This document shows positions 1 to 9,610 of a stretch of 64,000 nt of DNA, piece by piece. The translations under genes and the position numbers were made by a program. Source of the DNA: Listeria cossartiae subsp. cayugensis (lineage in GTDB: Bacteria > Bacillota > Bacilli > Lactobacillales > Listeriaceae); assembly GCF_014229095.1 (NCBI RefSeq), contig NZ_JAARZC010000003.1:248001-312000 (forward strand). The letters are read 5' to 3'. The notes beneath the pieces are model-generated. The model was not told where the DNA came from. It saw only the letters and a program-made list of their open reading frames with translations, and did no database searches. The first letter of the stretch is position 1. Every line of letters starts with the position of its first letter.

Positions 1-613
1 TCGCAGTGAAAATTCCTTTCTCGTTCACTTTTGTTGCTACTGTAATTCGCTGTTTGCTCTCGATTGTTTCGTATCCGCCGACCATCAACTCTTCGTCAAA
101 AATCCGCAAACTCGACTCCGCTAGCTGCTGCGTTCCAAAATTGGTTTGTTGCGCATCAATACCAGTCTTTACTTTCACTTTCATATTGGCGCTTAAAGGT
201 GTGATCTCCACTTTAGCCGCGATAACATGTTTTATTGCTTTTGAAACAAATCGGTGAAAATTCAGTTGGTATTTTTTGCCCGCGCTACTTTCCCAAGTGA
301 TTTTGCGAATTAATTCTCCTGTGTCCATATCTAAAAAACGTTCGTATGCGTGGACTTTTCCCGCTTGCATCGAAAAAACTTCGCCATCAAGCGTCACTTG
401 GAATCGCGTCACATCCGGCAAATTCACTAGCTCCGAACTCATCGAACCGCTCGGACGATTGTAAATTCCCGCCACATACATACCGCGAACTTGCTCCGGA
501 TACTCTTCTTCAAGAGCACCGCGCACACCCAAATAACCGTTTCCCACAGTCATTTGGCTTCCATATTTATTTAGATAATTTAATGCAAATTCCTTCTCAA
601 TTATTTTCCTCAT
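1..613 (-). CDS. Glycoside hydrolase family 65 sugar phosphorylase, N-terminal part (cut by window edge)
   Basis: The reverse strand reads open from ATG at 613 to base 1 (about 204 codons, no stop), so the gene continues outside the window. The start reads MRKIIEKEFALNYLNKYGSQ and is followed by VGNGYLGVRG, the typical N-terminal motif of GH65 phosphorylases (maltose, trehalose, kojibiose phosphorylases). Only the N-terminal beta-sandwich domain is visible; the catalytic barrel is missing. The start codon overlaps the stop of the upstream dehydrogenase gene as ATGA, so it is translationally coupled in the same operon. By position it corresponds to E. coli ycjT (kojibiose phosphorylase). The family is well supported; the exact disaccharide is inference. 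Confidence 0.88.
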   Translation of the reverse strand, partial: MRKIIEKEFALNYLNKYGSQMTVGNGYLGVRGALEEEYPEQVRGMYVAGIYNRPSGSMSSELVNLPDVTRFQVTLDGEVFSMQAGKVHAYERFLDMDTGELIRKITWESSAGKKYQLNFHRFVSKAIKHVIAAKVEITPLSANMKVKVKTGIDAQQTNFGTQQLAESSLRIFDEELMVGGYETIESKQRITVATKVNEKGIFTA

Positions 614-1641
614 AAAGAAACACTCTCACCTTTTTCTGCCGATTCGTATAAGCTTTCAACGATTTTTTGGATGATATAGCCTTGTTCTGCGCCGGCAAGC
701 TCCACTTTTCCATCACCAAGAACACTATCAACAAAGGCTTTCATGCTATTTTCGTGTTTATTTTCATCCAGTTGACCAAGGCTCTCCAATAACTCAAATG
801 CACCTGCATTATCTGTATAAATTTCAGCCGGGTATAAACTCCCTCCAGCTAAGTCACCGAAAAAGTCGACATTTAGCATGTTTTCCGGTTTAATATGTAG
901 CGCAAAAGAAGTATCCAGCTCAATCAATCCGCCATTTTCCAGTTCAATAAAGCCAAATAAAGAATCTTCTACGGTATATTTTTTCGGATCCCATGAACCA
1001 AATGTCCCAGCACTTTTCTTCGTACCGATTTTTTGGAAACTTTTTGCCGTTACTTTCTTCACTTTTGGAAAGCCGAGGACGAACATCGCCGCATCAAGCA
1101 TATGAATCCCCATATCAATCAACGGACCGCCACCTTGCATTTCTTTGTTCGTAAACGTTCCCCAACCCGGGACACCAGAACGACGAAGCGCAGTAGCCTT
1201 CACACAATAAATCTCACCTAAAAGCGCCGAATTTCCTTTTAAAAACTGTGCTTCACTAGAAAAACGATGGTGGAAATCATATGCCAAAATCGCACCCTTT
1301 TCCTCAGCCAGCTCCCACATCGCTTTCGCTTCTGCCGCACTCATTGCGGGTGGTTTTTCACACATAACGGCTGCCCCATGCGCTAATGAAAGCATCACAT
1401 TGTCAAAATGGAACCGATTAGGCGTATAAATACTCACAATATCAATTTTTTCTGTAGCAAACATTTCTTCTGCTGTAGCATAATGCTTCTCAAAACCATT
1501 GTTCACGCGGAACTCTTCGCCTCGTTCCATACTTGGATCGCAAACAGCCACTAGCTCTAGTTCATTTCTTGTCTTATAATATGCAGCGTGAACCTTCTCA
1601 GCGACTTGTCCGGCGCCTATAATTGCAACTCTTTTTTTCAT
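610..1641 (-). CDS. Gfo/Idh/MocA-family NAD(P)-dependent sugar dehydrogenase (YcjS-like)
   Basis: 343 aa. The N-terminal Rossmann fold has the glycine motif IIGAGQVAEKVH (residues 7-18). EKPPAMS is the conserved EKP motif, and DMGIHMLDAA carries the conserved active-site His/Asp pair of this family. These enzymes oxidise a ring hydroxyl of a sugar. In E. coli the positional equivalent YcjS oxidises C3 of D-glucosides to 3-keto-glucosides; I transfer this by gene order only. It overlaps the GH65 gene by 4 bp and lies 57 bp downstream of the TIM-barrel gene, with a terminator-like hairpin in that gap. Confidence 0.9.
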   Translation of the reverse strand: MKKRVAIIGAGQVAEKVHAAYYKTRNELELVAVCDPSMERGEEFRVNNGFEKHYATAEEMFATEKIDIVSIYTPNRFHFDNVMLSLAHGAAVMCEKPPAMSAAEAKAMWELAEEKGAILAYDFHHRFSSEAQFLKGNSALLGEIYCVKATALRRSGVPGWGTFTNKEMQGGGPLIDMGIHMLDAAMFVLGFPKVKKVTAKSFQKIGTKKSAGTFGSWDPKKYTVEDSLFGFIELENGGLIELDTSFALHIKPENMLNVDFFGDLAGGSLYPAEIYTDNAGAFELLESLGQLDENKHENSMKAFVDSVLGDGKVELAGAEQGYIIQKIVESLYESAEKGESVSL

Positions 1642-1660
1642 TATCCGAAACTCCTTTTAG

Positions 1661-1694
1661 AAAAATCCGTCCGCTTTGAATGGGACGGATTTTC
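1661..1694 (-). terminator. Terminator-like hairpin inside the ycj-like operon
   Basis: On the minus strand AAAATCCGTCC pairs with GGACGGATTTTT around a short loop, and the 3' arm runs into T residues. It lies between the TIM-barrel isomerase and the dehydrogenase genes. It probably reduces read-through or stabilises the upstream mRNA, because the operon clearly continues to the GH65 gene. Confidence 0.6.
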
Positions 1695-1698
1695 TATT

Positions 1699-2493
1699 TT
1701 AAATTAAACAGCTTTTTAAATGCGCTAATGCATCTTTATAAGCTTGTTCAGGATTTTCACTACGAACACGACATTCAAAAGTTAAAAATCCGTTGTAACC
1801 GTTCTTTTTCAGTTGATCAAAACTTGTTTTAAAATCAAGGCTGCCGCTTCCTGGTTGGTAGCGATGATTATCAGCAACATGAATGTGACCAATTGATGCT
1901 TTATACGTCTCAAGTGCAGCTGGAATGCTATCTTCTTCAATGTTCATATGATAAAAGTCAGCGATAATTTCTACATTTTTGAGATTATTTTCATCAATAT
2001 ACTTCTGCGCATCCCCCAGCAAATTAATCATGTGATCTTGGTATCTGTTAAGCGGCTCAAGGTAAACTTTTGTGCCAGTCTCCTCAGCAATTTTATCCAA
2101 GTAAACTAATGACTCGCTCACTGCTTTGAAATCTCCGGCTTGGCTACGTGGTGAAGTCATTGGTGGAAGGCGATACGTGAACATTCCCCACGCCGCTGGA
2201 ACAACAATCCCTTGTCCGCCAACTTCTGCTAAAGCTTCTAAAATCGCCTTAATTTCTTCTAAACCGTTCAGTCTGCGCTCTTCAATGAAGTCACCAATCC
2301 AACCATCATAACCGCCACATGCAGTACTAACAGGTAGCCCAGTTTTTTCGATAGCCTTCTTTACTTCATCCAAATTTTCCACAAGTAATTTACCATCAAT
2401 TTCAAAACCTTCAAAGCCCATTTCTTTTACATAAGCAAATTTTTCTTCAATATTTTCCGGGAAAAATGCTTGGTTTTGTGTGCCTAATTTCAT
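1699..2493 (-). CDS. TIM-barrel sugar isomerase/epimerase (AP endonuclease 2 family, YcjR-like)
   Basis: 264 aa, the usual length for xylose-isomerase-like TIM-barrel epimerases. Metal-ligand motifs typical of the fold appear in order: YLEPLNRYQ (Glu), IADFYHMNIEE (Asp, His), GHIHVADNHR (His) and FLTFECRV (Glu). E. coli YcjR, in the same operon slot, epimerises C4 of 3-keto sugars between the gluco and gulo forms. The gene starts 12 bp after the MDR dehydrogenase stop, so the two are co-transcribed. Family certain; substrate inferred from synteny. Confidence 0.88.
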   Translation of the reverse strand: MKLGTQNQAFFPENIEEKFAYVKEMGFEGFEIDGKLLVENLDEVKKAIEKTGLPVSTACGGYDGWIGDFIEERRLNGLEEIKAILEALAEVGGQGIVVPAAWGMFTYRLPPMTSPRSQAGDFKAVSESLVYLDKIAEETGTKVYLEPLNRYQDHMINLLGDAQKYIDENNLKNVEIIADFYHMNIEEDSIPAALETYKASIGHIHVADNHRYQPGSGSLDFKTSFDQLKKNGYNGFLTFECRVRSENPEQAYKDALAHLKSCLI

Positions 2494-2505
2494 TATTATC
2501 GCTCC

Positions 2506-3558
2506 TTAAAGGGTAATCCCCATTTTAATACTTAAATCAGGTTGTTGATCGACATATTTCATGTAGCTCTCAGCAGAATCAGCGAATGGAACAACTGGAT
2601 CAATAATATCCGAACAATCTAAGTAGCCATTCATCAGTAATTCCCAACAAGTTTCCTCAATGCGCTTACGATCCCAACGCGGATAATCCGGATTTGGTTC
2701 ACTAGCCGCACGGGAAAAGACGATTTTCGCATTGTTGAAATGAGCTTCACGTCCAAGGTTAAATCCTTCTGGGAAAGGTTTCGCGAATGCTACGTAAGAA
2801 ATTGTTCCGCCATAAGCTATTCCGCGCAACGCAGCTTGAAGCGCCGCCGCATTCCCGCTTGTTTCAATAATAGAATCCGCACCAAGTTTACCAGTAAGAC
2901 GTTTCACTTCTAAGCCAACATCTGTCGTAATCGGATCAAATGTAGCATCTGCTCCATGTTTTTCAGCGATTTCACGACGATGACTAAGTGGATCGACCCC
3001 GATAACAACACTTGCGCCAGCTTTTTTCGCTAGTTGAATCGCAATTTGACCAATCGCACCAAGTCCGACAACAACAACGTAATCGCCCGCACGAACATGT
3101 GCATCACGCACGCCACTCATTGCAAATTGAGCCGGATCGTAGCAAACCGCATTTTTCCAATTAGCGCCTTTTGGTAATTTGCGTAATTTATAATTATCGA
3201 CAGCTTTTACAATAACGGTTTCCATAATCGGTCCATAAGAACAAACAATGTCGCCAAGCGCATATTCTGTCACTTTGCTCCCGCGTTCAACTACTTCACC
3301 AACGACCATGTTACCTAGCTGAAACTCGCCAAATACAATGCCTCGCGCACTATTTGTTTCACGTGAAACAAATAGATTCCATTCTGGTGAAAATTCTTCA
3401 TCAATAAAAGGACTAATTCCTCTAAAATCAACTACTTCAGTACCATGTTTTGGAGAAGCGAATTGCACTTTAATTTTTACTTCATCTTCTAAAACTTCAC
3501 GATCATGATATTCTACTAATGCCGCCACACGAGGCGCTGTCGCTACTAATTTTTTCAT
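2506..3558 (-). CDS. MDR-superfamily (alcohol dehydrogenase-like) dehydrogenase, YcjQ-like
   Basis: 350 aa. It has a GroES-like N-terminal domain and a Rossmann domain with VVVVGLGAIGQIAIQLAKKAGA at about residues 160-181. The segment normally carrying the first zinc Cys reads FASPKHGTEVVDFRG without Cys, the usual GHE motif is replaced by GNMVVGEVVE, and the four-Cys structural zinc loop is not apparent. It may therefore not be a classical zinc alcohol dehydrogenase. As I remember YcjQ of E. coli, the KHGTEVVDF and YDPAQFAMSGVRDA segments are shared. YcjQ interconverts D-gulosides and 3-keto-gulosides. A perfect parS site lies inside this gene at 3355-3370. Confidence 0.87.
   Translation of the reverse strand: MKKLVATAPRVAALVEYHDREVLEDEVKIKVQFASPKHGTEVVDFRGISPFIDEEFSPEWNLFVSRETNSARGIVFGEFQLGNMVVGEVVERGSKVTEYALGDIVCSYGPIMETVIVKAVDNYKLRKLPKGANWKNAVCYDPAQFAMSGVRDAHVRAGDYVVVVGLGAIGQIAIQLAKKAGASVVIGVDPLSHRREIAEKHGADATFDPITTDVGLEVKRLTGKLGADSIIETSGNAAALQAALRGIAYGGTISYVAFAKPFPEGFNLGREAHFNNAKIVFSRAASEPNPDYPRWDRKRIEETCWELLMNGYLDCSDIIDPVVPFADSAESYMKYVDQQPDLSIKMGITL
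3355..3370. other. parS site (ParB/Spo0J binding), copy 1, inside the MDR dehydrogenase gene
   Basis: The 16-bp palindrome TGTTTCACGTGAAACA fits the parS consensus TGTTNCACGTGAAACA at every position. It lies about 14 kb left of dnaA, where parS sites cluster in Firmicutes, and is embedded in coding sequence, so it is kept despite codon constraints. Confidence 0.93.
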
Positions 3559-3576
3559 TTTAAATTACTTCCTTTC

Positions 3577-4428
3577 TTATCCTTTAACTCCACCATCAGT
3601 TAAGTTTCCTTTGATAAATCGTTCTGAAATTGCGTACATAATAACGACTGGAAGCGCCGTAACAAGCGATGCCGCCATCATTCTGCCCCAAATATAATCT
3701 GGTGTACTAAATAGTGTATTCAAGCCAATCGGTAACGTGAATTTCTCTGAGCTAGATAGGAAAATCGAAGCAAACAGATAATCATTCCAAGCTACCATGA
3801 AGCAATATACGAACACGGAGACAATACCCGAAATCGCAAGCGGAACAATAATTCGTAAAATAATCTGGAAGCGATTTAGCCCGTCCATCATTGCGGCTTC
3901 TTCAATATCAGTTGGAATCGTGTCAAAATAACTTTTTAGCATAAATACCGCGGTTGGCAGTGTTTGTACAACCATCGTGATAATTAAAGCCGTTTCCGTA
4001 TCATATAATCCCAAACTCGAAATTATTTTGAACAACGGAACGATTAACAAAATTCCAGAGAACATGTAAACCGTATAAAAACTTGCATTAATCGTCATTC
4101 GCCCTTTAAAGCGTAATTTCGACAACGCATAAGCGCCTAAAATCCCCAAAACAACCGCAATTCCGGCCGCAAAAACCGAAACAACCAAGCTATTTTTAAA
4201 GTACGTTAAAAACGGGAAAATATCCGGATTAAAAATATCGATATAATGCTGGAAAGTGAAATCTTTCGGGAAAAACGTCGGATTCGTGGAAATGGCTTCT
4301 TTACTGCTCTTAAATGAAGTCATTAACATAATCGCAAATGGGAACAATGTAATACATAAAAATGCTACCATCGTCACATAAAATGCGATTTTCTTCGTTC
4401 TTTTTGACTTTTTACTACTTACCGCCAT
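3577..4428 (-). CDS. ABC sugar transporter permease (MalG/CUT1 type)
   Basis: 283 aa, about six hydrophobic segments. The cytoplasmic EAA loop reads EEAAMMDGLNRFQIILRIIVPL near residues 177-198, which docks the ATPase. The C-terminus ends with the basic tail usual for CUT1 partners. Its start overlaps the end of the other permease gene by 14 bp, so they are translationally coupled. It corresponds to ycjP. No ATP-binding subunit is encoded in the window, so the importer must use a shared ATPase (MsiK/MsmK type) encoded elsewhere or beyond the left edge. Confidence 0.93.
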   Translation of the reverse strand: MAVSSKKSKRTKKIAFYVTMVAFLCITLFPFAIMLMTSFKSSKEAISTNPTFFPKDFTFQHYIDIFNPDIFPFLTYFKNSLVVSVFAAGIAVVLGILGAYALSKLRFKGRMTINASFYTVYMFSGILLIVPLFKIISSLGLYDTETALIITMVVQTLPTAVFMLKSYFDTIPTDIEEAAMMDGLNRFQIILRIIVPLAISGIVSVFVYCFMVAWNDYLFASIFLSSSEKFTLPIGLNTLFSTPDYIWGRMMAASLVTALPVVIMYAISERFIKGNLTDGGVKG

Positions 4429-5296
4429 TCAAGTCCACCCGCTTTCTTGCAAAAATAATAACAACAAAAATAATGACAAATAATATCACAGAAATCGCTG
4501 CTGCTTTTCCTAAATCATTGAATGCAAATGCTGTTTTATATAAATAAACTCCAAGGATATTTACTTTATTCGTGAGTAAGTATACATCGGTGAACATATA
4601 GAACATCCAAATCGCACGAAGCGTAATAACTGTCGCAAGTACCGGCATAATCGCTGGTAAAGTAACAATTTTGAATTTATCCCAAATGTTCGCTCCGTCC
4701 ATATCAGCCGCCTCATAAAGCGACTTATCAACCGTTTGCAAAATCGCCAAAAACGAAATAAATGCATACGGGAAATAACGCCATATCGCAAAAAATGTTA
4801 CTAAAAAGAAACTGGAAACGGGATTATCAAACCATAGTGGGGCTTCTTTGAACATATGAAGCACATCCACTGTCATAAAATTAATTACGCCATAACCATT
4901 ATTAAACATATACTTCCATGCAAAAATAAGAGAAATAGATGGTGTTACATACGACAAAATAATAAGCGACCGAGCCGTTCTTCTGAAACGAAACTCGCGG
5001 TTAAAGAATATCGCCACAAGTAGCCCCATCCCAGTACTCCCAATCACTACAAGCGCTGTATAAGCCACCGTAAGACCTAGTGATTTATAAAACTCTGGAT
5101 CCTTCAAAATATCTATATAGTTTTGTAAACCGATAAAGACCGATTTAATATTCGGATTTAGTGGCATATCTAAAAAACTAATCTGGATATTTGAAATCAT
5201 CGGATATAAAACCAGTGCTGCCAGTAAAACAAAACTTGGTGCAAGTAAAATCATTGCTAACTTAAAGTCGGACCTTTTATATACTTTTGTTTTCAT
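4415..5296 (-). CDS. ABC sugar transporter permease (MalF/CUT1 type)
   Basis: 293 aa with about six membrane segments; the first is near residues 11-33. The EAA motif reads YEAADMDGANIWDKFKIVTLP near residues 208-228. It corresponds to ycjO and forms the membrane channel with the following permease. It is 74 bp downstream of the binding-protein gene; that gap contains a GC-rich terminator-like hairpin, a common arrangement allowing more binding protein than permease. Confidence 0.93.
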   Translation of the reverse strand: MKTKVYKRSDFKLAMILLAPSFVLLAALVLYPMISNIQISFLDMPLNPNIKSVFIGLQNYIDILKDPEFYKSLGLTVAYTALVVIGSTGMGLLVAIFFNREFRFRRTARSLIILSYVTPSISLIFAWKYMFNNGYGVINFMTVDVLHMFKEAPLWFDNPVSSFFLVTFFAIWRYFPYAFISFLAILQTVDKSLYEAADMDGANIWDKFKIVTLPAIMPVLATVITLRAIWMFYMFTDVYLLTNKVNILGVYLYKTAFAFNDLGKAAAISVILFVIIFVVIIFARKRVDLNGGK

Positions 5297-5334
5297 AATG
5301 CCTCCTTAAATCAAAAAGCGACGTGCTAAACTGT

Positions 5335-5363
5335 TAAAAAAGGCGGGGAGACTCACTCCCCGC
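5335..5363 (-). terminator. Intra-operon hairpin with T-run between binding protein and permease genes
   Basis: On the minus strand GCGGGGAG pairs with CTCCCCGC around a 5-nt loop, followed by CCTTTTTT. This is a good rho-independent terminator shape placed after the binding-protein gene. Partial termination would lower permease expression relative to the binding protein. Confidence 0.72.
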
Positions 5364-5370
5364 TATTTGA

Positions 5371-6663
5371 TTATTTACCTTCTTCAGCTTTTTTCTGTGC
5401 AGCTTTTAAGTCCGCTGATACATCGCCACCACCAACAGTTACGTTATTAACCATCTGTGCGATAATGCCTGAGCTAGTAATATCTCCCATTTTTGTAAGG
5501 TTTTTACCGTCAACAAGTCCGAAAACTTGGATGTCATTGAATGATGCTGCGATTTCATTTGGAAGTTCACCAAACGATTTAATTACTTCATTTTCTTTGT
5601 AAGCTTTTTGTTCTACTACTTCTTTATTTACTGGTTGCGCCCCGCCTGGAGACATTAATACCCAAGTTGCCATGTTTTTCGGTTGAGACAAGTATTCAAC
5701 AAATTTCTTCGTTGCTTTCTTTTGCTCATCATCAAGTCCTGCTGAAATAGTTAAACCAGAAACTGTTCCATAAACTGCTTTTTCTTTTTCTTCTGGAATT
5801 GCGAAACCGATATTTTTTGGATCGCCTTCTTCATAAACGGATGGAAGGATATACGTAGAGTACATCGCCATTGGAACAGTTCCATTCATAAATGCATCTT
5901 TAATTTCAGTTACATCATTTGAACCAGGCATCGTGTATGCTGACAAATCTTTGTAGTATTGAAGCGCTTCTTTCATTTCTGGTGTATCGATGGTTACATT
6001 ACCTTTTGCATCTAGAACGTTTGCTTTGTTAGACAGCGCGAATTGGGAGAATGCTTGCTCACTCATAGTGCTTTCTGCTGTTGGAATTGCAATACCGTAT
6101 TTTTTATCTGCTTTATTCGTGAATTTTTTAGCTACTTTTTCAATATCCGCCCAGTTTTTCGGTTCTTCAAAACCAGCATCGGCTAACGCTTTTTTGTTGT
6201 ACCAAATACCTTGAACCCAACCGCTTAATGGGGCTGCGATAAAGCTTTTACCATCTTCAGAGCGTACTAAATTTGTTGCACCTTCATAGTATTTATCTTC
6301 TCCAATTGAATCAATAACTTCTTTTACTGCATCTTGGTCAATCAACTGATCTTTATCCATTACTTTGGCAAAATCTTGGCTTACTTCCATAACTGCTGGA
6401 AGTTTACCAGAACGAGCAAGTGTGACAACTTTTGTATTAAAAGCATCTTCCTCAACTGGAATTTGTTTGATTTTAATTGTTGGATTTTCTTTTTCAAAAT
6501 CAGCAATTAATTGATTAATAACATCTAAACGTTCTTTTTCAACGGATGAATGCATAAATTCGATTGTTACTTCCTCACTACTAGAACCTTTTCCTCCACA
6601 TGCAGCTAAAACCGCACTTAGAACCAACACAACAACAAGTAATACAAGACTCTTTTTCTTCAT
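5371..6663 (-). CDS. Sugar ABC transporter substrate-binding lipoprotein (CUT1 type)
   Basis: 430 aa. A lipoprotein signal peptide ends in LAAC with Cys22 as the lipidation site, followed by a low-complexity GGKGSSSEE linker. The rest is a type-1 extracellular solute-binding fold (SBP_bac family) with EFMHSSVEKERLDVINQLI near the N-terminus. It captures the sugar outside the cell and delivers it to the two permeases. It overlaps the phosphorylase gene by 4 bp (ATGA) and corresponds to ycjN. The ligand is probably a glucosyl-glycerate-like or alpha-glucoside compound, by context only. Confidence 0.93.
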   Translation of the reverse strand: MKKKSLVLLVVVLVLSAVLAACGGKGSSSEEVTIEFMHSSVEKERLDVINQLIADFEKENPTIKIKQIPVEEDAFNTKVVTLARSGKLPAVMEVSQDFAKVMDKDQLIDQDAVKEVIDSIGEDKYYEGATNLVRSEDGKSFIAAPLSGWVQGIWYNKKALADAGFEEPKNWADIEKVAKKFTNKADKKYGIAIPTAESTMSEQAFSQFALSNKANVLDAKGNVTIDTPEMKEALQYYKDLSAYTMPGSNDVTEIKDAFMNGTVPMAMYSTYILPSVYEEGDPKNIGFAIPEEKEKAVYGTVSGLTISAGLDDEQKKATKKFVEYLSQPKNMATWVLMSPGGAQPVNKEVVEQKAYKENEVIKSFGELPNEIAASFNDIQVFGLVDGKNLTKMGDITSSGIIAQMVNNVTVGGGDVSADLKAAQKKAEEGK

Positions 6664-8360
6664 TTTTGTTCCTCCCTGTAATTTTTGGTTTTTAGCCAGC
6701 AGAATTCATAGCCACTAAGCTTTATGGAATCGCTCCCAGTTATAGTGGAGCCCGTATAAAGATTTGTATAAACACCGCTGTCTAGTGAATAACTCACTTC
6801 TTTTTCTGATAAATTATGAATCAATATAATCGATTCTGCGTCGGATGCGCGTTTAACAACAAACAATTCCGCCGTAGATTCTAAAACTTCCATCGGGATT
6901 TCTGGATGGAAAAGTGATTCCGCTTTTCGTGTGCTAATTAATTTCGTTAGCGCATCATACGTTTCTTTTCGTAAGGAGCCAGCTTGTTCTAACTCAGCAG
7001 TAATTTCCGCCAAGTCGTATTTTTTTCGATTAATAGAGCGATTGTGACTTGTTGCTTCTACGCCTAAATAATCATTGCGGCTTCCTAAAATACTTTGAAC
7101 ATAAACGGCTGGAACGCCTGGGATAGACATCAATACTGCATGAGCCACAAGGAATCTTGCAAGTCGCAAATCATCTGTATCCGCTTGTTTACTTAACGCA
7201 TCCATGTACGTCACGTTAATTTCATAAGGACTCTTAGAACCATCTGGATTCTGCTTATAAGAAACGAGCGCGCCTTCTTTCTCCAAATCATCCACTAGCG
7301 CCAAAATTTCCGCTTCCGGAATAATTCCACGCACTGGATTTAACCCAATCCCATCATGTGAGGCAAGGAAATTAAAGAATGTCCGCTTGCCTTCTGGTAA
7401 CTCTAAATTTTCCGCCCAATTGCGGAGGAACGCTGCATTGCCATGATGTATCGCATGGAGCACAAGTGGCGGAAGCGGGAATTGATAAACCATATGCGCT
7501 TCTTTTTCACCATTTCCAAAGTAACTAATATTATCAACATGCGGCACATTGGTTTCGGTTATAATAATCGTCCCTGGTGCTGCAATGTCTACTAAATCTC
7601 TAAATAATTTTACGATTTCATGTGTCTCTTCCAAGTGAATCGAGCTCGTTCCCGGCACTTTCCACATAAAGCCAACCGCATCAAGTCGCACATATTCCGC
7701 ACCTTCTTCTAAATAGAACATCAAGACATCAATCATCTTATAAAGCACTTCTGGGTTAGCAAAGTTCAAATCAATCTGATCTTCACTAAACGTCGTCCAA
7801 ATATGCCCTACTTTCCCTGACTCAAACTCAAATGGCGTAAGTACTGGTGTCGCACGTGGTCTCGTTACCGAACTAAGGTCTGTTTCTGGATCCATCTCCA
7901 CAAAGAAATTCTGAAACTCCTCATCACCCGCCAAATATCTCTTAAACCAGTCACTTTTCGCCGACATATGATTACAAACAAAATCAAACATCAAGCGTGC
8001 CGACTGCTCCATTTCCTTAATATCCGTCCAATCACCAAGCTCCGGATTCACCGCTTTATAATCAATGACCGAAAACCCATCATCCGAAGAATAAGGATAA
8101 AAAGGCAAGAAATGAACTACCTCAAAAGTCGATTTTAAATAACTATCATACATTTTCTTAAAAGTTGTTAACGTTTTTTTGGATTCCTCTTTAAACTGGT
8201 CCCCATATGTAATTAAAACAATATCTTTCTCGTCCCACTTATCTTTTCGTGTTAATTTTCGTTGTTGCGTTTGCTGTACCCGTGCTTCGATTCTTGTTGC
8301 CAAACTTTCCACTACATCTTCGCTATATAACCGCGAAAGTCGTTTTCTTAAATTCGTCAT
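6660..8360 (-). CDS. GH13 subfamily 18 phosphorylase (annotated class: sucrose phosphorylase; YcjM-like)
   Basis: About 566 aa. GH13 motifs are visible: FDFVCNHMSAKSDWF, VRLDAVGFMWK (nucleophile Asp), IITETNVPH (acid/base Glu) and FNFLASHDGIGLNPVRGI (transition-state Asp). Such enzymes phosphorolyse an alpha-glucoside to glucose 1-phosphate and an acceptor. Typical sucrose phosphorylases are shorter (about 490-505 aa). The length and the ycj-like gene order favour a glucosylglycerate phosphorylase like E. coli YcjM. Two ATG codons occur at 8363 and 8360; the second has the better spacing from AGGAGG. It is the first gene of the operon. Substrate not provable by eye. Confidence 0.88.
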   Translation of the reverse strand: MTNLRKRLSRLYSEDVVESLATRIEARVQQTQQRKLTRKDKWDEKDIVLITYGDQFKEESKKTLTTFKKMYDSYLKSTFEVVHFLPFYPYSSDDGFSVIDYKAVNPELGDWTDIKEMEQSARLMFDFVCNHMSAKSDWFKRYLAGDEEFQNFFVEMDPETDLSSVTRPRATPVLTPFEFESGKVGHIWTTFSEDQIDLNFANPEVLYKMIDVLMFYLEEGAEYVRLDAVGFMWKVPGTSSIHLEETHEIVKLFRDLVDIAAPGTIIITETNVPHVDNISYFGNGEKEAHMVYQFPLPPLVLHAIHHGNAAFLRNWAENLELPEGKRTFFNFLASHDGIGLNPVRGIIPEAEILALVDDLEKEGALVSYKQNPDGSKSPYEINVTYMDALSKQADTDDLRLARFLVAHAVLMSIPGVPAVYVQSILGSRNDYLGVEATSHNRSINRKKYDLAEITAELEQAGSLRKETYDALTKLISTRKAESLFHPEIPMEVLESTAELFVVKRASDAESIILIHNLSEKEVSYSLDSGVYTNLYTGSTITGSDSIKLSGYEFCWLKTKNYREEQK

Positions 8361-8376
8361 CATTTACCTCCTAACC

Positions 8377-8388
8377 GGGAGCGCTCCC
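8377..8388. promoter_or_regulatory. Operator palindrome downstream of the ycj-like operon promoter
   Basis: GGGAGCGCTCCC is a perfect 12-bp palindrome with the central CG typical of LacI-family operators. It lies just downstream of the predicted transcription start and upstream of the ribosome binding site. It is the best candidate site for the divergent LacI regulator at 8585. Confidence 0.72.
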
Positions 8389-8397
8389 ACAAGAAGA

Positions 8398-8426
8398 ATT
8401 ATAGTATGGAAAGCGCTTTCTGTCAA
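8398..8426 (-). promoter_or_regulatory. Sigma-A promoter of the ycj-like operon with an embedded cre site
   Basis: On the minus strand TTGACA (8426-8421) and TATAAT (8403-8398) are separated by exactly 17 bp. The spacer contains the perfect palindrome GAAAGCGCTTTC (8409-8420), which fits the CcpA cre consensus. CcpA binding would occlude the promoter, giving carbon catabolite repression on top of specific control by the LacI protein. Confidence 0.88.
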
Positions 8427-8584: not shown

Positions 8585-9610
8585 TTGGCATCGACCATAT
8601 ACGACATAGCAAAACACGCGGGAGTTTCAAAATCAACGGTATCCAGAGTACTAAATAACCAAGCCAACATCTCCGAAGAATCACGCAAAAAAGTACTAGA
8701 AGCAATTGACGAACTAAATTATCAACCAAGCAAACTAGCACGCGCACTTACTTCTTCGGGTTTTGATGCTATTATGGTTATCTCAAATCGCTCTACTACA
8801 ACCACAACTGGAAATCCATTTTTTTCCGAAATAATTCAATCGATTTCCACTCAAGCTGAGTTGGAAAATTTTGACCTAATCCTTCAAACTGCCAAAAACA
8901 GCGAAGATGAACTTAAAAAATGCCTCTCCAAAATTCAAGAAAAAATGATTAAAGGTATTATCATGCTAAGTTCACCAGCCGATGAAGATTTTTTCCATCA
9001 ATTAGATCCCTATAACATCCCTATTGTTGTTACTGGAAAAGTCGAAGGACATTACAAAAACATCTATTCAGTCGACACAGACAATTTTGGCGACAGTTAT
9101 GCTCTAACCAAACATTTAATCAAACAAGGTCATCAAAAAATTGCTTGTATCCATGCTCCACTTGATTATCACGTGTCAATTGATCGTCTTGCCGGTTTCC
9201 GTAGTTGCCTATTTGACCATCAACTAGACCTGCGTAACGACTGGATTATTGATAGTGGCTATAGCATAGAAGATAGCTACAAAGCCGCACTACGCCTAAT
9301 GGCAGGCCCTGACAAACCAACAGCAGTTTTCGCAACCGACGACCTAAAAGTACTTAGCATTTACAAAATGGCAGCCGATAAAAACTTACAAATCCCAACA
9401 GATTTTTCCGTCATCGGCTATAACGATAAAATAGCATCTTCATTCCTATCGCCGCCGCTAACGTCTATCGATATTCCTATTAACAAACTAGGAAAAAAAG
9501 CAACGAACCTATTGTTCCGCCTAATCCATCAAGACAAAAACGTACCAAAAACTACCATTATCAAAACCGAAATGATTGAACGCGAATCCATTCAGAAAAT
9601 AAACGCCTAA
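8585..9610 (+). CDS. LacI-family transcriptional regulator of the ycj-like operon
   Basis: 341 aa from a TTG start at 8585, which gives the canonical N-terminus [20 protein letters not shown], a LacI helix-turn-helix plus hinge (residues 3-50). The rest is a periplasmic-binding-protein-like effector domain ending in the usual [13 protein letters not shown] strand. It is divergent from the phosphorylase operon and very likely represses it through GGGAGCGCTCCC at 8377. The effector is unknown; a sugar from the operon pathway is likely. The gene is followed by a tRNA only 21 bp downstream. Confidence 0.92.

Follow-up and report, generated by a model that had tools for sequence, protein, structure and literature searches.

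A ycj-type operon with a glycerate kinase gene in Listeria, and a candidate glycerate-capped substrate

Which glycoside is taken up and degraded through the ycj operon, and which compound induces it? In Escherichia coli the operon is nearly universal (4951 of 5426 complete genomes contain ycjR) and its enzymes have been assigned singly, yet the imported compound and the inducer are still being sought. Kojibiose fits the role of inducer only in part: according to passages of PMC6599011 the regulator YcjW comes off DNA in its presence, kojibiose as the only carbon source does not support growth of E. coli, and "some derivative of kojibiose" was proposed as inducer by the authors. Here we analysed a related operon at the left end of a 64,000-nucleotide stretch of the chromosome of Listeria cossartiae subsp. 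cayugensis (C3:248001-312000 of its assembly, called the window below). The operon continues beyond the left edge of the window and contains a glycerate kinase gene. On balance we consider it probable that the locus is a ycj-type catabolic operon in complete form, and that its enzymes act in series on one glycerate-capped substrate.

Ten Listeria proteins, nine structural ones and the regulator, are orthologous to the Ycj proteins of E. coli K-12, at 50-78% identity and in the same order. Gene families were assigned using Pfam and NCBIfam. The eight structural genes reaching into the window all lie on the minus strand. From the promoter onwards they encode a GH13_18 phosphorylase of YcjM type (6660..8363, 55% identical to YcjM), a solute-binding lipoprotein-like protein of YcjN type (5371..6663, 58%, PF01547), two ATP-binding cassette (ABC) permeases of YcjO type (4415..5296, 74%, PF00528) and YcjP type (3577..4428, 78%, PF00528), a zinc-type dehydrogenase of YcjQ type (2506..3558, 77%, D-guloside 3-dehydrogenase in the E. 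coli annotation), a TIM-barrel epimerase of YcjR type (1699..2493, 71%, 3-keto-glycoside C4 epimerase), a Gfo/Idh/MocA dehydrogenase of YcjS type (610..1641, 56%, D-glucoside 3-dehydrogenase in the E. coli annotation) and the N-terminal 204 codons of a GH65 alpha-1,2-glucoside phosphorylase of YcjT type (1..613, 50%). The first-pass annotation, made on the window alone, had proposed this very order with E. coli ycjMNOPQRST as the model, and the low identity that would have spoken against the model did not occur. It had also described the junctions as ATGA or short overlaps, which is correct for three of the seven (4 bases between the GH13 and binding protein genes, 14 between the permease genes, 4 between the Gfo/Idh/MocA and GH65 genes); at the remaining junctions the genes stand 12 to 74 bases apart. 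Finally, it anticipated a ycjU counterpart past the left edge. The sequence to the left of the window comprises the complete GH65 gene (L003:8437-10614, 725 amino acids), then a glycerate kinase gene (373 amino acids) and then the anticipated beta-phosphoglucomutase gene (220 amino acids from an inner ATG, 50% identical to YcjU), with 4-base overlaps joining each to the next. The kinase gene was thus beyond the view of the first-pass annotation, and it adds glycerate to the expected products of the operon.

By the criteria of its family the operon kinase is a glycerate kinase, with scores of 451 bits for PF02595 (cut-off 23.3) and 460 bits for TIGR00045 (cut-off 168), and it is the only PF02595 gene in the genome of the window. 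To follow its distribution we used a scan of GTDB genomes that yielded 139 relatives of the epimerase, the best 80 of which were kept with their flanks, more distant clusters falling outside this set. These 80 clusters belong to 13 Listeria, 19 other Bacillota and 48 other organisms, and nearly all complete ones exhibit the ycj gene order. A kinase gene was detected in 27 of them, namely in 11 of the 13 Listeria, 15 of the 19 other Bacillota and one of the remaining 48, from Limnobaculum. The slot between the GH65 and phosphoglucomutase genes is occupied by the kinase in Listeria, several Bacillaceae and Limnobaculum; in Gottfriedia-type clusters the kinase follows GH65 and the phosphoglucomutase lies elsewhere. 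Twenty-four of the 27 kinases are not divergent, and all 22 long enough to be placed form one clade, gathering those of Listeria, of 12 other Bacillota and of the Gram-negative Limnobaculum clusters. This clade received a support of 100/100 under a mixture model on 33 selected rows, and the same support on 56 rows including 27 background kinases. A grouping of the Limnobaculum kinase with enterobacterial kinases was tried and rejected (approximately unbiased test, p-AU 3.5e-10), although the long Limnobaculum branch calls for caution. Its identity reaches 56% with Bacillaceae cluster kinases versus 47% with the other kinase of its own genome. In three clusters (L023, L025 and L031) kinases of other clades are found nearby. 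That of L023 is not contiguous, being located past four opposite-strand open reading frames, and its proximity may be a coincidence. Those of the closely related L025 and L031 belong to a further clade and directly follow the phosphoglucomutase gene, corresponding to at most one separate recruitment.

A kinase and a phosphoglucomutase gene also adjoin each other, with the remaining operon genes absent, at L117:9768-11548 and L220:8709-10515. The former pair occupies the syntenic place in a Listeria genome. L220 comes from another family of the same order, and the neighbour of its kinase is a phosphoglucomutase-like gene.

The sequence marks of the catabolic enzymes were then compared with those of characterized relatives. 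In the parts of PMC7178133 available to us, (T/S)ETN after strand beta5 together with a glutamate in loop A are the marks of strict glucosylglycerate phosphorylases. The Listeria GH13 enzyme carries them as ITETN and PYEIN, which assigns it by sequence to the predicted glucosylglycerate phosphorylases, and TETN with the loop-A glutamate was found in all 82 aligned GH13 proteins from the clusters. Two clusters, L041 and L052, are missing the orthologous GH13 gene; they encode a GH13_18 protein of another branch (43% identical to the references) with the same marks, located after the phosphoglucomutase gene or an ATPase gene. For GH65, an excerpt of PMC8537180 gives EEAP at CsKP positions 64, 392, 394 and 402 as the kojibiose phosphorylase fingerprint, and the Listeria enzyme shows E, E, A and P at these positions. 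The triad W391-E392-T417 is only partly present, position 417 being S and position 416 being A. In the alignment, the columns W391, E392, A394 and P402 are kept in 81 of 81 sequences, and position 64 is occupied by E in 68 of them and by D in the other 13. The epimerase aligns with the solved YcjR structure 6wn6 over residues 1-262, and the columns E146, D179, H205 and E240, which we take to be its metal site, are invariant in 84 of 84 sequences. Its orthology and these presumed metal-site residues are those of a YcjR-type enzyme. Relatives of solved structure include YcjR (epimerase), a kojibiose phosphorylase (GH65) and the glycerate kinase 1to6 (operon kinase).

The regulatory region is likewise of ycj type. 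A LacI-family regulator gene of YcjW type (8585..9610, plus strand, TTG start as listed, 60% identical to YcjW) diverges from the structural genes. The predicted promoter of the latter (8398..8426, minus strand) consists of TATAAT at 8398-8403, a 17-base spacer and TTGACA at 8421-8426. The palindrome AGAAAGCGCTTTCC (8408-8421) lies in the spacer with a one-base overlap with the -35 box and is presumably a cre-like site. A second palindrome, TGGGAGCGCTCCCG when read toward GH13 (8376..8389, minus strand), directly precedes the ribosome-binding site and has one mismatch to the consensus TGGKASCGSTMCCA; with the YcjW-type repressor gene next to it, this predicted operator upstream of GH13 corresponds to the ycj arrangement. 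In E. coli the 14-mer TGGGACCGCTACCA is located upstream of ycjM and again between ycjT and ycjU, and passages of PMC6599011 place the strongest peaks of YcjW chromatin immunoprecipitation at these two sites. After leaving out 4 of 83 loci without an orthologous GH13 gene, a TGGKASCGSTMCCA site with at most one mismatch was found near the GH13 start in all 79 loci scanned, E. coli included, and 73 of them match it exactly; as the consensus was drawn post hoc from the scanned loci and covers both E. coli sites, these counts describe conservation and are not an independent test. None of 3950 base-shuffled windows, which preserve base content only, contained such a site. The E. coli sites escaped a palindrome search run at a strict threshold. 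A fully symmetric operator consensus was tried and rejected: it matched poorly in Enterobacterales, because the predicted starts there lie upstream of the site.

Gene order, LacI regulator and the 14-bp operator are thus common to the Listeria operon and to E. coli K-12 ycjMNOPQRSTU with ycjW. Unlike the Listeria operon, that of K-12 has no kinase gene, has a second operator between ycjT and ycjU, and is accompanied by ompG and by the ATPase gene ycjV, which is a pseudogene in K-12; the Listeria genome encodes, at another place, a YcjV-like ATPase with 70% identity. Listeria monocytogenes shows the same annotated order including the glycerate kinase, with 93-94% DNA identity over the operon (93.8%) and no notable difference from the window. 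We take its genes to be lmo2831-lmo2840. The conservation of ycj genes in Listeria is already published: passages of PMC5808219 name lmo2834-2837 YcjS, R, Q and P, and passages of PMC11543891 place Listeria fleischmannii in a YcjN cluster whose neighbourhoods are ycj-like. What we did not find in print, within the open-licence literature on Ycj, Listeria, glycerate kinase and kojibiose or glucosylglycerate, is the position of the kinase inside the ycj module. As in Listeria, pairs of a GH13_18 enzyme with TETN and an adjoining glycerate kinase are described in the portions of PMC7178133 at hand; those pairs are tied to osmolyte metabolism, whereas the Listeria pair is embedded in an operon for transport, guloside conversion and GH65 phosphorolysis.

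A second Listeria operon (L126:8034-15515 and L127:2433-9899) offers a further comparison. It also encodes a GH13_18 protein with the glucosylglycerate phosphorylase marks and a glycerate kinase, and a LacI gene adjoins it in L126, but a phosphotransferase system (PTS) and a GH38 protein take the place of ABC import, of the YcjQ-, YcjR- and YcjS-type enzymes and of GH65. The PTS and GH38 proteins are nearest to the models of the mannosylglycerate transporter and hydrolase, with scores below the cut-offs. This operon is absent from the genome of the window. Apparently the same genes are lmo2733-2736, listed in an excerpt of PMC2996996 as a PTS, a sugar hydrolase, a sucrose phosphorylase and a hypothetical protein. 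This second operon suggests that the pairing of GH13_18 with a kinase goes with glycerate glycosides in Listeria.

How could these proteins work together? The orthology, the marks, the operator and the kinase are read from the DNA itself; the reactions are carried over by analogy from work on E. coli, those of the YcjQ-, YcjR- and YcjS-type enzymes from the K-12 annotation, passages of PMC8950772 and PMC11543891, and general background. The binding protein and the two permeases would import the glycoside with energy from a shared ATPase whose gene lies at another locus. By way of 3-keto intermediates, the YcjQ-, YcjR- and YcjS-type enzymes would convert a D-gulosyl unit into a D-glucosyl one. 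GH65 would then phosphorolyse the alpha-1,2 bond to release beta-glucose 1-phosphate, which beta-phosphoglucomutase would turn into glucose 6-phosphate. The GH13_18 enzyme would split the remaining 2-O-alpha-glucosyl-D-glycerate by phosphorolysis, yielding D-glycerate and alpha-glucose 1-phosphate, and the glycerate would enter glycolysis by way of the kinase. The LacI/YcjW-type repressor would act on the operator at 8376-8389. The E. coli reactions and the kinase can be lined up one after another, and the simplest single substrate for such a chain is a glycerate-capped compound with alpha-1,2 links, for example (Gul or Glc)-alpha-1,2-Glc-alpha-1,2-glycerate; we infer both the serial action and the compound on this basis. 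Such a substrate fits the remark, in the passages of PMC6599011 cited above, that a kojibiose derivative may be the true inducer.

Several observations weigh against this serial pathway. The kinase is missing from 53 of the 80 clusters, including 47 of the 48 of Enterobacterales type. Five of the nine operon-less Listeriaceae (L117-L121) and two genomes of other families (L220 and L221) hold a kinase of the cluster clade; since it is kept in genomes without the operon, it has some use of its own. Glycerate kinases are also common, 218 of 398 Bacillota genomes matching at 1e-60. In GH65, CsKP positions 416/417 are A/S instead of W/T in all 81 sequences, and because these residues differ from CsKP its acceptor may not be plain glucose. 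To our knowledge, no glycerate-capped compound of the proposed kind has been reported. YcjN bound no tested sugar, kojibiose included, in the passages of PMC11543891 that we cite. The frequency of the kinase, its absence from most clusters elsewhere and the five Listeria genomes that keep it alone would all be expected if it were a passenger, a housekeeping gene beside which the ycj module sits by chance. A passenger would hardly be expected within the operon, joined by 4-base overlaps to GH65 on one side and to phosphoglucomutase on the other, nor at the equivalent place in Limnobaculum and several Bacillaceae with kinases of one clade, and L117 and L220 retain it as a pair with phosphoglucomutase; we regard a chance association as improbable. 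Of the 80 cluster-bearing genomes 28 were checked, and each of these has at least one kinase somewhere; this would agree with loss from the cluster and is no proof of it.

The two phosphorylases might also serve two substrates behind one transporter and one regulator, with kojibiose-type glucosides or gulosides handled by the YcjQ-, YcjR- and YcjS-type enzymes and GH65, and glucosylglycerate, an osmolyte that other microbes release, by GH13_18 and the kinase. Each phosphorylase does have a stand-alone substrate in E. coli, by annotation and in a table in the accessible part of PMC8950772, and glucosylglycerate phosphorylase genes often travel with a glycerate kinase gene according to passages of PMC7178133. 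Against such a division of labour, the epimerase, GH65 and GH13_18 genes are all present or all absent across 36 Listeriaceae, co-occurring in the same 27, one operator is common to them, and L041 and L052 swapped their GH13 gene instead of losing it. We judge two substrates to be possible, though unlikely. An older view, in which the operon is for sucrose and the GH13 enzyme acts mainly as a sucrose phosphorylase, draws on the name given to lmo2840 in passages of PMC8190317 and on the best NCBIfam model for the enzyme, TIGR03852, whose score of 217 bits lies under the cut-off of 334. The enzyme nevertheless has TETN and the loop-A glutamate, is 55% identical to YcjM, which passages of PMC7178133 describe as strictly a glucosylglycerate phosphorylase, and is accompanied by a glycerate kinase but by no fructose kinase. 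A sucrose operon is very improbable, and the sequence bears out the first-pass annotation, which had considered the locus not to be a simple sucrose system.

The first-pass annotation had further suggested the transfer of a whole module between Gram-positive and Gram-negative bacteria. Among the 48 clusters outside Bacillota, 47 are from Enterobacterales. The exception is a contig titled Chryseobacterium (L079); it groups with Enterobacter and has E. coli-like psp and ycjXF neighbours, and is probably a mislabelled or contaminated assembly. Trees were midpoint-rooted. The tree of eight joined proteins (40 selected loci) divides Bacillota from Enterobacterales, with branching that mirrors host families inside each group, and in ten single-gene trees (33 to 37 selected rows) the Bacillota/Enterobacterales split needs one change each. 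As a yardstick, Listeria RpoB shares 55% identity with its E. coli counterpart and 85% with that of Bacillus. The corresponding values are 77% and 78% for the YcjQ-type dehydrogenase, 74 vs 72% and 78 vs 80% for the permeases, 71% and 77% for the epimerase, and 50% and 58% for GH65. Because the identities within the module nearly match, unlike those of RpoB, the module appears to have crossed phyla as a unit, long after the phyla parted. Gene trees, the RpoB comparison and the common operator thus support, at the level of sequence, a between-phyla transfer of the whole module.

The epimerase was also found in 63 plasmid records, 56 of them typed as conjugative, and a Priestia megaterium plasmid typed as mobilizable (L005) carries a cluster of nine genes plus LacI that matches this order but lacks the kinase; vehicles for transfer therefore exist today. 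L188 and L189, IncHI2A conjugative plasmids of Enterobacter and Citrobacter, contain a chromosome-like psp-ycj-tyrR segment adjoining qnrB6, with the GH13 gene unannotated in one plasmid and annotated as short in the other. Within Listeriaceae, the epimerases of the 27 genomes are at least 76% identical. In a Listeria genome of 83% completeness (L113, G017) the epimerase and a dehydrogenase are in pieces, perhaps through assembly errors. In thin samples of wider scope, the epimerase was found in 1 of 398 Bacillota of the phylum sample, the one being the window itself, and in 9 of 394 genomes of the order sample.

Since the cluster kinases of Bacillaceae, Limnobaculum and Listeria form one clade, the ycj operon of E. 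coli may have been reduced from a fuller module. We tentatively propose, with less than even confidence, that the natural ycj substrate is a (D-gulosyl or D-glucosyl)-alpha-1,2-glucosyl-alpha-1,2-D-glycerate, that Listeria, Bacillaceae and Limnobaculum keep the ancestral kinase-bearing module, and that E. coli and its kin have the reduced one. The presence of the kinase inside a related operon narrows the ycj substrate question to a short list of testable compounds, and these candidates could be made with the operon's own phosphorylases.

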